A stretch of DNA of 34,661 bases from Segetibacter koreensis DSM 18137. Its GTDB lineage: Bacteria > Bacteroidota > Bacteroidia > Chitinophagales > Chitinophagaceae. The stretch lies in NCBI RefSeq assembly GCF_000374045.1, contig NZ_KB893334.1, forward strand, positions 17,528 to 52,188. Direction: 5' to 3'. The notes under the pieces are model-generated. The model was not told the origin of the DNA. It ran no database searches and was given only the letters and a program-made list of their open reading frames with translations. Shown one piece after another: positions 20,807-34,345 of this stretch (its first letter is position 1; each line of letters begins with the position of its first letter). The position numbers and the translations under genes are program-made.

Positions 20807-22294
20807 ATGTCAACGAATCAAATAGTTTCTAAAGTATGGTCGTTTTGCAATACCCTTCGTGATGATGGTGTGGGCTATGGTGACTATTTAGAACAACTTA
20901 CTTACCTGCTGTTTTTGAAAATGGCAGATGAATATAGCAAGCCGCCTTGCAGTCGTAATATTGCTATTCCACAAGAATATAACTGGCAAAGCTTAACTGC
21001 GCTTCGTGGTGGAGAGCTGGAGGTGCATTACTCCATCCTGCTTCGTGAGTTGGGTAAGGAGAAAGGCATGCTGGGACAGATTTTTACCAAGAGCCAGAAT
21101 AAGATACAGGACCCTGCCAAGCTGTATAAACTGGTAGACCTGATAGACCACGAGAACTGGGTAATGATGGGTGCAGATGTAAAGGGCGACATCTACGAGG
21201 GGCTGCTGGAGAAGAATGCAGAAGATACGAAGAGCGGAGCCGGTCAATACTTTACCCCACGTTCGCTGATAAGGGCAATGGTAGAATGTGTTCGTCCTGA
21301 ACCAATGCGTACCATTGCAGACCCTGCATGTGGTACCGGTGGTTTCTTTTTAGCCGCTTACGATTTTATTGTTGAGCATCATAAGGGCCTGGATAGAGAA
21401 CAAAAGAAGTTTCTTAAGCTAAATACCTTTTATGGCAACGAGATAGTTGCAGGCACAAGAAGGCTTGCACTGATGAACCTGTTCCTGCACAACATCGGCG
21501 ATATAGACAGTGACAACAATATATCTCCGGCTGATGCGCTGATTGCTCCTTCAGCTGTTTATTATGATTATGTATTAGCCAATCCACCCTTTGGTAAAAA
21601 GAGCAGTCAAACCTTTACTAACGAAGAAGGCGAACAGGAAAAAGAAGACCTCACCTACAATCGCCAGGACTTCTGGGCTACCACCAGCAATAAGCAACTG
21701 AACTTCGTTCAGCACATCCGCTCGATGCTAAAGACAACAGGCAAGGCAGCAGTAGTTGTTCCGGACAATGTCCTTTTTGAAGGTGGGGCCGGAGAGACGG
21801 TTCGTAAAAAGCTGTTGGAAACAACAGATGTACATACCATCCTTCGTTTGCCTACCGGTATCTTTTACGCCAACGGCGTAAAAGCCAACGTTATCTTCTT
21901 CGACAACAAACCCAGCAGCAAAGACCCATGGACAAAAGAGATTTGGTTCTACGACTACCGCACCAACATCCACCACACCCTTAAAAAGAACCCATTAAAA
22001 CTTAGCGACCTGCAGGAGTTTATTACCTGCTATAATCCAGACAATCGTTTTAAACGTGCTGAGACTTATCATGCTACTGACAATCCTGAAGGCAGGTGGA
22101 GGAAGTTTACCTATGAAGAGATCATTGCCCGTGATAAAACATCTTTAGACATTACCTGGCTAAAAGATAAATCACTTGCTGACTTAGATAATCTTCCTGA
22201 TCCTGATGCATTAGCCGAGGAGATAGCGGAGAATTTGGAGAGTGCGTTGGGGAGTTTTAGGGAGGTGTTGCGGCAGTTGAAGGGGGTGAATTAG
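20807..22294 (+). CDS. hsdM: Type I restriction-modification DNA methyltransferase subunit
   Basis: 495 aa. The N-terminal HsdM domain ('KVWSFCNTLRDDGVGYGDYL', 'LTYLLFLKMADE') is followed by the N6-adenine methylase core: motif I 'ADPACGTGGFF' (171-181), 'GNEIVAGTRRLALMNL', and catalytic NPPF at 259-262. It methylates adenine in the HsdS-defined target and forms the M2S core to which HsdR binds. Unusually, it is the last gene of the locus and is separated from hsdS by about 7.3 kb of defence genes. Its 3' third (encoding '[16 protein letters not shown]' to 'LGSFREVLRQLKG') recurs in at least five broken copies downstream. The start at ATG 20807 gives the conserved N-terminus; the region between the HNH gene and this ATG (106 nt) could hold its own promoter. 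Confidence 0.95.
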   Translation: MSTNQIVSKVWSFCNTLRDDGVGYGDYLEQLTYLLFLKMADEYSKPPCSRNIAIPQEYNWQSLTALRGGELEVHYSILLRELGKEKGMLGQIFTKSQNKIQDPAKLYKLVDLIDHENWVMMGADVKGDIYEGLLEKNAEDTKSGAGQYFTPRSLIRAMVECVRPEPMRTIADPACGTGGFFLAAYDFIVEHHKGLDREQKKFLKLNTFYGNEIVAGTRRLALMNLFLHNIGDIDSDNNISPADALIAPSAVYYDYVLANPPFGKKSSQTFTNEEGEQEKEDLTYNRQDFWATTSNKQLNFVQHIRSMLKTTGKAAVVVPDNVLFEGGAGETVRKKLLETTDVHTILRLPTGIFYANGVKANVIFFDNKPSSKDPWTKEIWFYDYRTNIHHTLKKNPLKLSDLQEFITCYNPDNRFKRAETYHATDNPEGRWRKFTYEEIIARDKTSLDITWLKDKSLADLDNLPDPDALAEEIAENLESALGSFREVLRQLKGVN

Positions 22295-22380
22295 TTCAAG
22301 AACTAAGGGATTCACTAGTTCAATAGTAGTATGCAAATAAATATTTTTTGATATTAAAAGAGTAGCTAATTAAACAAACA

Positions 22381-23757
22381 ATGCTAACTGAAGAAACAAA
22401 ATCAAGAATCAATGCCATTTGGTTTGCCTATAGCAACAGTAACAAAAAGTCGTTTGATACAAAAGGCAATGAAATTGAAAACATCGACGGTTCTCGAGTT
22501 GAGGCAATAAAGGTGATAAAAAAAATTATAGGAGACTTTTTAACTGATAAAACAAATCTGTTAGAGTTTAAAACAAACCTTGACAGTTACAATAAGCAAA
22601 ATAACTACTGGGGATTTACCGCAGCTAAAGGGCAAATGTTTTTTAATCTACTTACAAAATCAAGCGAGAATGAACTTGATAAACTTAGTGCCTTACTTAA
22701 AAAAATTATTACAGAACCTACGGACCTTGATGATGCACTATCAAGGATGCAGGAACTATTTGTGTACACAAGCAAATATCAATTGAAGGCCATAGACAAG
22801 AGAAAATGCGCTAATCCTAAATCGGCTGCATATTTTCTTTCCTACTTTTGGCAGATTCATGACTTCCAAAAGTGGCCGGTTATGTATAGCTCCCTAATCA
22901 ACTCCTTCGAAGAGTTAGGTATATGGGAAGAGCAGTCTACACCACAAGAAAATTATAAGCAGTTTTATAACTTGAATGAGGAAATCAAGAACTATTTGAT
23001 ACAGCAGAGGAAAAATTCCATTTCAAACTGGGAGATTGAACATGCATTTTGGCATTTTTCAGGTACGGTGTCAGTAAATTGGAAGCAGCCGAAAAAAAAG
23101 CAATTTACTCCTGCTACTTCTCCTCCTATTCCTACCACTAATACTGCTACTATTGTTGAAGGCAAAGCTGAAATTAAAGTTGTTACCCCAGGTTTCGAGT
23201 TGACAGACTATCTGATACCTAAAGTTTGTAAATTGGTTGAATTGGGCGCAAGTACGGAAAGATCCAGTTCCTCAAAAGGACACGAATTTGAGAAAATGGT
23301 CGGTGAAGTGTTTCGGCTATTAGATTTTGAACTAGAGATGTTAGGCCAGGGGGCAGGTCGTGAACCTGATGCAATAATTAAATTTAGCGAAGAGCATGTT
23401 GCCTTTATTATAGATGCGAAGGCATACTCGCTAGGTTATTCGCTTGGAACTGATGATCGTGCAATAAGAGAGTATATAAATTACTATTGCCCAAAGCTGA
23501 GACAGGCAGGTTTTAATAAGATTGGCTTTATTATCGTCTCAAATTCGTTTAAATCCAATTTGCACGAGCTTGTTAATTCAATAACTTGGAATACAGACGT
23601 CAAGCGTTTCATTTTATTAACATCTGAGGCTCTTTTATATCTTTTAGCATATAAGACTAAAGACAGGTTGCCCCTAAATGAAATTATTGATGCTTTAATA
23701 TCCTATTCAACCATTGTTACTAAAGAGAGTATAATTGAGAAATTTGGAGACTATTAG
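22381..23757 (+). CDS. Restriction-endonuclease-like protein with FokI-type PD-(D/E)xK domain
   Basis: 458 aa. The C-terminal ~170 residues resemble the FokI cleavage domain: 'GHEFEKMVGEVFRLLDFE', 'GREPDAIIKF' with D330, 'IIDAKAYSLGYSL' with D345 and K347 (compare FokI's PD...DTKAYSGGY), then 'FNKIGFIIVSNSFK'. The N-terminal ~240 residues contain 'NNYWGFTAAKGQMFFNLL', a motif I associate with N-terminal domains of predicted Bacteroidota restriction proteins; DNA or partner binding is possible. A Lys-rich then Pro/Thr-rich linker (about 238-262) joins the parts. No dedicated methylase lies beside it, so it may recognise modified DNA or rely on the adjacent type I system. It starts 86 nt after hsdM, and an hsdM remnant begins about 1 nt after its stop. 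Confidence 0.75.
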   Translation: MLTEETKSRINAIWFAYSNSNKKSFDTKGNEIENIDGSRVEAIKVIKKIIGDFLTDKTNLLEFKTNLDSYNKQNNYWGFTAAKGQMFFNLLTKSSENELDKLSALLKKIITEPTDLDDALSRMQELFVYTSKYQLKAIDKRKCANPKSAAYFLSYFWQIHDFQKWPVMYSSLINSFEELGIWEEQSTPQENYKQFYNLNEEIKNYLIQQRKNSISNWEIEHAFWHFSGTVSVNWKQPKKKQFTPATSPPIPTTNTATIVEGKAEIKVVTPGFELTDYLIPKVCKLVELGASTERSSSSKGHEFEKMVGEVFRLLDFELEMLGQGAGREPDAIIKFSEEHVAFIIDAKAYSLGYSLGTDDRAIREYINYYCPKLRQAGFNKIGFIIVSNSFKSNLHELVNSITWNTDVKRFILLTSEALLYLLAYKTKDRLPLNEIIDALISYSTIVTKESIIEKFGDY

Positions 23758-23963
23758 ATGCTATCGGACTTCTGAAGGTAGATTTAGAAGGTTTACTTAT
23801 GATCACATTGTGAAAAAGCATCTTTGAACATTATCTGACTAAAAGATGAATCTCTTGCTGCCTTAGATAATTTTCCTGATCCTGATGTGTTGGCGGAAGA
23901 GATAGCGGAAAATTTGGAGAGTGCGTTGGGGAGTTTTAGGGAGGTGTTAAGGAGGTTGAAGCG
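23758..23963 (+). pseudogene. hsdM 3'-end remnant R1
   Basis: Hand alignment matches hsdM bases from about 22069 to 22282. The first 120 nt are strongly decayed (frame broken by stops: 'GRFRRFTYDHIVKKHL' then a stop). The last ~84 nt from GATCCTGATG onward match intact hsdM at about 88% by eye, including the unbroken run AGAGTGCGTTGGGGAGTTTT. It begins directly after the nuclease stop codon and ends where the next gene starts. Confidence 0.85.
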
Positions 23964-23966
23964 GTG
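23949..23966 (+). promoter_or_regulatory. SD-like sequence and GTG start lying in the hsdM remnant
   Basis: AAGGAGG at 23949-23955 lies 8 nt before the GTG (23964-23966) that opens the glycosylase-like gene. Both lie inside remnant R1: the GTG aligns with the GTG of the last codons of hsdM (Gly-Val-Asn-stop). No other good start exists before codon 120. Bacteroidota often do not use SD sequences, so the function is inference. Confidence 0.5.
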
Positions 23967-34049: not shown

Positions 34050-34053
34050 CACA

Positions 34054-34122
34054 TGGGTAAGATAAACCACTTGCTGACGTAGACAACCTTCCCGATCCTG
34101 ATCTACTGTCGGAGGAGATTGC
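34054..34122 (+). pseudogene. hsdM 3'-end remnant R4a
   Basis: 'GATAAACCACTTGCTGACGT' and 'CTTCCCGATCCTGATCTACT' up to 'CGGAGGAGATTGC' match hsdM 22161-22228 with about 80% identity by eye. It is truncated before the terminal core and starts about 4 nt after the PAP2 gene stop. Confidence 0.75.
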
Positions 34123-34143
34123 ACAAACCCAGCGGCAGAGAGC

Positions 34144-34345
34144 TGGACAAAAGAGATCTGGTTCTACGGCTACCGAACCAACATTCACCACAGCCTTAAC
34201 CCGATGAAGCTGCAGGATTTGCAATCATTAAACGTTGTTGAAACTTATGATGCTGTTGATAATCCTCAAGGACGGTCGAGCGGAGGAGATAGCGGAGAAT
34301 GGGAGAGTGCCTTGGGGAGTTTTAGTGATTGTTGAAAGACTCTAA
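34144..34345 (+). pseudogene. hsdM 3'-end remnant R4b (internally deleted)
   Basis: It starts TGGACAAAAGAGATCTGGTT, corresponding to hsdM from about 21928, runs through 'ACCAACATTCACCACA', skips part of the middle, and continues 'TATGATGCTGTTGATAATCC'. It then jumps to the terminal core 'CGGAGGAGATAGCGGAGAAT', ending 'TTGGGGAGTTTTAGTG'. The frame is broken. The first 20 bases match R3 exactly and intact hsdM with one difference. Confidence 0.8.

Follow-up and report, generated by a model that had tools for sequence, protein, structure and literature searches.

Genes trailed by truncated hsdM 3' ends in Segetibacter koreensis suggest a serial-displacement array anchored on a type I restriction-modification operon

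Introduction

Arrays in which displaced genes leave their 3' ends behind have been described for toxin systems. For the type VI secretion system (T6SS) effector-immunity loci of Vibrio cholerae, passages of Kirchberger et al. 2017 (PMC5361080) propose homology-facilitated illegitimate recombination, in which the 3' end of the displaced gene is pushed back together with the downstream gene and repetition yields an array. In passages on contact-dependent growth inhibition (CDI), cdi remnants accumulate stepwise in the 5'-3' direction (PMC6336857), and orphan Rhs modules are described, in the parts consulted, as carrying part of the conserved region (PMC3967940). Two further sources concern type I restriction-modification (RM) operons: excerpts of PMC11411939 place the TgvAB genes inside such an operon on Vibrio pathogenicity island 2 (VPI-2) of V. 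cholerae, and excerpts of PMC12829572 describe S. aureus hsdM and hsdS alleles and neighbouring defence genes that are exchanged together by homologous recombination through lateral transduction. Here we analyse a 34,661-nucleotide (nt) stretch of the Segetibacter koreensis DSM 18137 genome (the window), in which an intact type I RM operon ends in the methylase gene hsdM and several downstream genes (payloads) are each followed by a truncated hsdM 3' end, called a scar or tail below.

As far as the cited passages go, T6SS arrays resemble this locus in having a homologous upstream anchor and in that the alleles of one genome do not cluster together. Their anchor is an effector locus and immunity genes remain, whereas here the anchor is the methylase gene (and also hsdR and hsdS) and the kept genes, both defence and non-defence, follow no immunity logic. 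Orphan CdiA-CT and Rhs-CT regions, as excerpted in PMC6336857 and PMC3967940, are likewise displaced 3' regions that lie downstream and contain tracts homologous to the main gene, but such a remnant is part of a toxin gene and can be re-fused, whereas an hsdM remnant is a spent end in front of an independent gene. The TgvAB operon shares with the window the presence of extra defence genes inside an hsd operon, here Qat and a Septu-like PtuAB pair; unlike the window, the TgvAB passages mention no series of truncated hsdM copies, and those on S. aureus allele swapping mention no scars. By this comparison, the locus is best read as following the same logic as the T6SS and CDI displacement arrays, with an RM anchor. 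An earlier note on this DNA, made from its letters alone, had described the array and known of no such system; arrays built by sequential displacement that keep parts of the displaced gene are in fact published, in the T6SS and CDI passages cited (PMC5361080, PMC6336857). Among the papers listed by searches of the open-access literature, none names an array of hsdM tails in its title or at the beginning of its abstract, which argues only weakly that none has been described. The ways in which chromosomal defence islands acquire and lose genes are poorly understood, and hsdM tails make past exchanges at an RM locus countable. They would also widen the displacement-array idea from toxin-immunity loci to RM operons and general cargo, and the cargo slot of this RM family is a simple source of candidates for anti-phage testing.

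An array of hsdM 3' remnants

The window corresponds to C21:17528-52188 of a 6.1-Mb draft genome in 73 contigs; numbers with C, G and L denote contigs, genomes and loci, respectively. Remnants were placed by BLASTN with hsdM DNA, and positions are in window numbering with hsdM nt in brackets. The intact anchor hsdM is followed by truncated 3' copies in the same orientation (R1-R4), the arrangement by which membership of a displacement array is recognised. All window scars lie on the + strand and share ~80-92% DNA identity with intact hsdM (69% for the first part of R2), at E-values of about 1e-10 to 1e-268 that exclude chance similarity. R2 consists of ~25018-25127 (1177-1286, 69%) and 25131-25261 (1349-1479, 92%); R3 has a BLASTN core at 26487-27226 (734-1479, 87.5%) and remains an open frame of 249 codons; and R4b combines 34123-34199 (1100-1178, 87%) with ~34279-34334 (1407-1464, 88%). 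No match to hsdR or hsdS at E<=1 was found in window positions 22295-34661.

We interpret the window as a serial-displacement array of a type I RM operon of the form hsdR, hsdS, variable cargo, hsdM, variable downstream gene, built by repeated one-sided exchange, and give this interpretation a probability of roughly 0.56. Much of the earlier note stands: at 23747-34345, BLASTN confirmed that the FokI-like, UDG-fold, O-methyltransferase and PAP2 genes are trailed by pieces of the hsdM 3' end, and the note's gene labels were upheld by Pfam (FokI_cleav_dom, UDG, Methyltransf_2, PAP2 in two stretches) and by PADLOC, used for the defence genes (QatB/QatC, PtuA/PtuB). Three details were corrected. 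The array had been started at 22006, which falls inside intact hsdM; the four payloads had been given as a series without the four minus-strand genes that lie between R3 and the PAP2 gene; and R4b had been started at 34144 rather than at 34123, flush with the end of R4a.

Table 1. Features of the window, in window positions (hsdM nt in brackets).
Feature	Position	Strand	Basis or remark
hsdR, restriction subunit	9316..12117	+	Pfam EcoEI_R_C, ResIII, HSDR_N
hsdS, specificity subunit	12271..13509	+	Pfam Methylase_S
Cargo 1, Qat system (KAP NTPase, QatB, QatC, TatD DNase)	13525..18432	+	Pfam KAP_NTPase, QueC, TatD; PADLOC QatB, QatC
Cargo 2, Septu-like (PtuA ATPase, PtuB HNH)	18510..20700	+	PADLOC PtuA 7.7e-107, PtuB 1.1e-26
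Dispersed-repeat stretch before hsdM	20715..20806	+	BLASTN matches in L141 (three places), L144, L034, L032, L036
Intact hsdM, 495 amino acids (aa)	20807..22294	+	Pfam N6_Mtase, HsdM_N
FokI-like nuclease, payload	22381..23757	+	Pfam FokI_cleav_dom
Scar R1, hsdM 3' remnant (~1255/1280-1484)	~23747/23772-23968	+	BLASTN 80-81%
UDG-fold protein, payload	23964..24884	+	Pfam UDG
Scar R2, two hsdM pieces with internal deletion	25018..25264	+	BLASTN
O-methyltransferase, payload	25401..26471	+	Pfam Methyltransf_2
Scar R3, longest remnant (~731-1479)	26475..27235	+	BLASTN
Four genes: unassigned, DUF3575, LytTR response regulator, histidine kinase	27758..32306	-	Pfam
Double-PAP2 protein, payload	32724..34049	+	Pfam PAP2, two stretches
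Scar R4a (1358-1421)	34059..34122	+	BLASTN 81%
Scar R4b (1100-1178 and 1407-1464), with deletions	34123..34345	+	BLASTN; abuts R4a
End of gene X, cut by contig end	34447..34661	-	Second copy in another tail array of the genome

The interval between R3 and the PAP2 gene also holds ~500 nt without an open reading frame (ORF) of 80 aa. A LytTR-type kinase-regulator pair, found here at 30566-32306, occurs also at L180:2849-4577, directly before a truncated hsdM of another genus.

Distribution of the remnants

We surveyed 10 genomes of the genus, some of them drafts (71-100% complete), with hsdM DNA as the query at E<=0.01. Eight of the 10 carried hsdM pieces, giving 41 match rows, one of which is the intact gene; this is the sole intact member of its close family found in its genome, and no intact copy of the family was seen in the other nine genomes (some draft). 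Several genus genomes have divergent hsdM genes of about 30% identity. A control query of 7,176 bases (7.2 kb) of island cargo, for which 30 of the 36-76 first-look candidates per genome were scored, gave a single row across the 10 genomes, at its own place. In congeners, hsdM tails adjoin other payloads (MFS, Dabb, HipA and VOC genes), in keeping with the repeated, scar-leaving acquisition that had been proposed from the window alone. No empty site with just one hsdM came to light, although no search aimed only at empty sites was made.

Beyond the genus, a query of the 121-residue HsdM tail matched 32 of 294 family genomes (E<=1e-8). The match lay within an open frame of at least 442 aa in 23 of the 32; only shorter frames were found in the other nine, namely G009 and eight genomes of other genera (G096, G198, G297, G291, G072, G276, G268 and G075). 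The pieces in G276, G075 and G291 lie at or near contig ends and may be cut by assembly rather than broken. Among the best 80 of 351 loci with a homologous hsdM (the named-locus set, L059-L138), tblastn found a second hsdM piece in four, to which a tail-like frame in L112 was added by eye.

It could be argued that the array is an artefact of assembly, or that the similarities arise by chance, given that the genome is a 73-contig draft and that the repeated gene X lies at the end of several array contigs. We consider this hardly credible: the copies differ by ~8-20% or more, E-values reach 1e-268, and the same pattern recurs in other genus genomes and in other genera, so the misassembly that the earlier note had named as a danger is unlikely.

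Shape of the scars

To profile which part of hsdM survives, we stacked 45 pieces from 21 loci, including every match place of the genus survey. Over the terminal 124 nt of hsdM the mean depth was 19.6, compared with 3.8 over the initial 124 nt and 0.1-0.8 at nt 249-744; 22 pieces reach nt 1440 or beyond, six start at nt 20 or before and 17 do neither. The 3' end is among the least conserved bins of intact relatives (68% vs 73-76% in most middle bins), indicating that the pile-up of 3' ends is not a detection bias. Starts of 3' scars are spread from hsdM nt 734 to 1408, about 670 nt, which makes integration at a fixed site unlikely. Starts are shared in two small groups: C57a and C43, both at 1282, are members of one duplicated block, and C40b, C16b and C57b have a common repeat fused near 1346-1355. 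At the other end, about half of the pieces stop near the natural stop codon.

These features bear on several schemes of insertion. The earlier note had offered two routes, of which exchange between hsdM alleles fits the data and integration at a fixed point of the hsdM 3' end does not, given starts from 734 to 1408. A dedicated cassette or site-specific integration system, with the hsdM 3' end as attachment site, would account for tails that share one orientation, for the order of payload then tail and for the presence of gene X twice with tails on both sides; tyrosine-recombinase-like matches also lie on C22 and C1, ~2 and 6 kb from hsdM pieces. Scar starts that differ by about 670 nt, scars of hsdR and hsdS as well, and the absence from the genome of any match that passes the integron-integrase cut-off (0 of 1) nevertheless make such a system very improbable, and it is not shown by these data. 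Integron gene cassettes form arrays of unrelated genes, each with a shared element after it. Here, by contrast, no integrase exceeds the cut-off in this genome and there is no fixed site. An integron was accordingly rejected (TIGR02249, 0/1 over the cut-off, with weaker matches also in all 14 control genomes), as were an attC-like fixed site, judged by scar starts, which differ save in the two small groups, and a genomic island at a gene 3' end, which calls for a constant crossover and a restored gene end and is confronted with starts spread over ~670 nt.

In a Campbell-type insertion, a circular DNA with a payload and a fragment of the hsdM 3' end would recombine once with hsdM to give intact hsdM, payload and hsdM fragment. 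This route would end in the same structure and would likewise account for the variable starts and natural ends of the scars. We regard it as improbable, as a scan of array payloads revealed no recognisable gene for replication or mobilisation and the required circle with an hsdM fragment was not seen; a relaxase-like ORF on C16 (L034:6143-7099), noticed by eye, lies outside the scanned payloads.

Origin of the alleles

If scars were copies of the resident gene, their differences should look neutral. We counted codon positions in 27 of the 37 pieces then known, omitting 10, which were duplicates, very short pieces and some 5' or middle ones, and attached no formal probability since overlapping pieces share ancestry. 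Differences from intact hsdM fell at codon positions 1, 2 and 3 in the proportion 206/179/490 (875 in total, 56% third), compared with 298/171/1168 (71% third) among five intact relatives and with the ~45% third positions that we estimate for a freely decaying copy of the own gene. This third-position excess suggests that the pieces mostly diverged as working genes and broke later, and thus derive from different, once-functional alleles. Individual old pieces, for example C43 (10/10/13), show a nearly neutral pattern. In a tree from one short alignment of seven genus and nine outside sequences, R3 joins the intact gene (0.83). Another piece of this genome, C40c, pairs with G9_3 (0.88), and the remaining two G009 scars fall in the same clade (0.93, with an inner node at 0.63), a sign that more than one hsdM lineage is represented in one genome. 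Duplication of the own gene as the sole source of scars was rejected on the codon positions together with identity and the tree.

Junctions and the proposed mechanism

Three junctions bear on the mechanism. In L097 (Limnovirga soli), a FokI-like gene lies 83 nt after hsdM, with no hsdM piece behind it at E<=1e-4; the window nuclease is 59% identical to this relative end to end, at full length and with the same terminal residues, FGDY. Its last codons hold GAGACT, a hexamer found also at hsdM 1255-1260, where R1 begins; a shared hexamer of this kind is what joining by microhomology at the far end of the incoming DNA would leave, but six bases can match by chance. At the second junction, the in-frame stop of R1 overlaps the start of the UDG gene (GTGA, 23964-23967; TGA over GTG), which points to an older order of hsdM followed by UDG. 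The third, between a tail and a Dabb gene, is common to G000 and G009 (77.8% over 752 nt), and its upstream side differs: one tail is cut at 1346 after repeat DNA, the other at 951 after an MFS gene. Together, these junctions support insertion between a new hsdM and the old 3' end. Possible stepwise intermediates are the tail-Dabb junction with differing partners in two congeners and the scar-free hsdM-FokI pair of another genus. The UDG payload proved of no use as a tracer: three of 294 family genomes match it at E<=1e-10, its own included, and the best foreign match is 40% identical.

Under serial displacement, incoming DNA would bring cargo together with the RM gene beside it, in most cases hsdM, and would recombine once with the resident operon by homology in that RM gene. 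Immediately beyond the cargo, the far end of the incoming DNA would join the 3' part of the resident copy by chance microhomology, leaving a full-length hsdM, the new cargo, the cut 3' end of the old hsdM and the old downstream gene. Repeats of this event, with import of whole blocks from other strains, would yield payloads separated by hsdM tails; a mirror event upstream would produce 5' scars, and the same could happen at hsdR and hsdS. We infer the type of crossover (homology plus microhomology), the route of DNA entry and the selective keeping of payloads.

Several observations weigh against serial displacement. The microhomology evidence is one joint, no donor-recipient pair within a species was seen, and many payloads are non-defence genes. 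Decay is not ordered by distance from the anchor: R1 has 5 gaps in 210 nt vs 2 gaps in 740 nt for R3, so the model needs import of a block, and we suppose that hsdM to the O-methyltransferase came as one block with R3 as the youngest scar. A prediction of age order along the array failed for the same reason, R3 being much less decayed than R1. Tails also arise by plain deletion, as shown by loci that keep both ends of a collapsed gene (L176, L143 and L151) and by the tails of L175 and L180, which have no recognised RM gene upstream in the fetched stretch. Finally, payloads stop nearer to their scars than random joints would place them. Across 14 same-strand payload-to-scar joints with strict gaps (one duplicate acyltransferase-C16 joint was removed first), the payload stop lies within 18 nt of the scar in nine: FokI overlaps, UDG ~130, O-methyltransferase <=15, PAP2 9, a small C40 ORF 10, acyltransferase 18, MFS 54, Dabb 74, HipA 4, VOC 38, an L153 ORF 1, an L151 ORF 267, the L175 kinase overlaps, and the L180 regulator 12. 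A lenient estimate (10 of 13 within 18 nt) was dropped in favour of this one, as alignment may over-extend. This closeness resembles the native spacing between cargo and hsdM and so fits decay of cargo-hsdM operons; insertion alone leaves it unexplained.

Possible decay of operons in place

The main rival explanation is decay in place. Operons of the order hsdR, hsdS, cargo, hsdM would have arrived repeatedly and lost their RM genes by deletion while the cargo was kept, each payload having once been cargo in the operon whose hsdM tail now follows it. Among the best 80 of the 351 loci, such operons form a family with 77-89% HsdM identity that includes Bacteroidota and Proteobacteria, and the nearest named relatives of the window HsdM are from Paracnuella (89%) and Flavisolibacter species (88-89%). 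A recognised hsdS is present in 61 of the 80, 50 of which have cargo between hsdS and hsdM, comprising one to six same-strand ORFs of at least 100 aa. The gap from cargo to hsdM has a median of 7.5 nt and is at most 20 nt in 28 of the 50, as decay in place would have it. Broken operons are also seen: G009 has hsdR(1-431), a helix-turn-helix (HTH) gene, HipA and an hsdM tail; C43 has a broken hsdR; L180 has a histidine kinase and response regulator 12 nt before hsdM(155-478); L176 is a collapsed operon; and C24 and C1 carry other defence-like genes (type IIG-like; DrmA/DrmB) flanked by 5' pieces of hsdR on one side and of hsdM on the other. The arrangements in G009, C24 and C1 indicate that RM-gene decay around kept cargo also occurs. 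For the window, decay in place is possible yet doubtful: its array holds no hsdR or hsdS piece, the FokI-like gene is downstream of hsdM in L097 too, R1 overlaps the UDG start, and decay alone does not account for the strong 3' bias.

Scars of hsdR and hsdS, and 5' scars

With hsdR as the query, matches were found in six of the 10 genus genomes, and with hsdS in five, several of them divergent homologues. Close hsdR pieces lie on C43, C1 and C24 of the own genome and in G009, G007 (at a contig end), G008 and, more weakly, G006; close hsdS pieces beyond the intact gene are confined, among the 10 genomes, to one contig of G002. L151 contains a collapsed hsdR (1-194 joined to 2560-2801), a HipA-like kinase gene, another ORF and a second hsdR 3' piece, and in L153 two hsdS 3' pieces enclose two unassigned ORFs, the second of these pieces beginning 1 nt past a stop codon. 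Scars of this kind from hsdR and hsdS mean that hsdM is no unique tag, and the view of the methylase tail as a special feature is not supported. In L176 (2776-3687), an hsdR 5' end is joined to an hsdS 3' end and an hsdM 5' end to an hsdM 3' end, followed by an Mrr gene, so that an in-frame hsdR-hsdS fusion ORF of 177 codons stands beside a miniature hsdM made of its two ends only; in L143, hsdM 7-80 is followed after 3 nt by 1296. Mirror 5' scars occur upstream of intact hsdM in L059, L112 and L097.

Some of these loci carry further genes of note. A GxxExxY gene (TIGR04256) lies between an hsdM 5' scar and intact hsdM at L059:8158-8760 and L112:10001-10600; inverted-repeat-like ends, seen by eye (TGTCTGAACT...), point to a small mobile element. 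Other copies of the dispersed repeat that precedes hsdM in the window adjoin 5' scars in L036 and L141. DISARM-like DrmA and DrmB are encoded on C1 at L160:6993-9001 and L037:664-9040. L159:7625-11338 encodes a helicase/PLD-like protein of 1237 aa. Over its first 115 residues it shares 89% identity with the N terminus of HsdR, making this a chimeric gene at a decayed RM locus.

Probable continuation of the array on other contigs

The end of the window is the end of its contig (C21:52188) and lies inside gene X, which is cut likewise at the end of C40; the window array is therefore incomplete, and it probably goes on in other contigs. The two ends have the C-terminal end of gene X in common; C57 and C43 break off within an acyltransferase-like gene (HGSNAT_cat match), of which they keep the N-terminal part. 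We infer that the two parts belong to one gene and, from this, how C40, C43 and C57 join; in all three, gene X and the tails have opposite orientations, as they do where the window ends, and the assembly probably broke the array at this gene.

Two arrays of the genome each contain gene X flanked on either side by tails (94-97% identity), and a block of acyltransferase, scar and DinB is present twice, with identity shifting from 95% to 87% at the scar. Such duplications, together with Dabb genes that have differing partners, hint that hsdM tails could act as a shared landing pad, homologous recombination between tails moving payloads with their tails inside one genome or from one genome to another, so that the dead methylase end would serve as an integrase-free cassette tag; we hold this to be rather unlikely. 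A first impression of recombination inside tails, drawn from the gene X copies, amounts to no more than a hint, for the edges of homology between the copies are one deletion and one truncation. The 'MKSIFF' gene was rejected as a fixed chromosomal flank, its neighbours differing among L034, L139 and L141. At L032:10540-11195, ~660 nt between two hsdM tails contain dispersed repeats and no gene recognised on inspection, some recurring in the G003 loci L144 and L147.

The intact operon and its cargo

In the window, hsdR, hsdS and hsdM are all present and intact, and both cargo blocks (Qat and PtuAB) are placed between hsdS and hsdM. In the named loci, the same slot holds GmrSD-like, Fic, RhuM/Fic and helicase genes and a weak reverse-transcriptase match.

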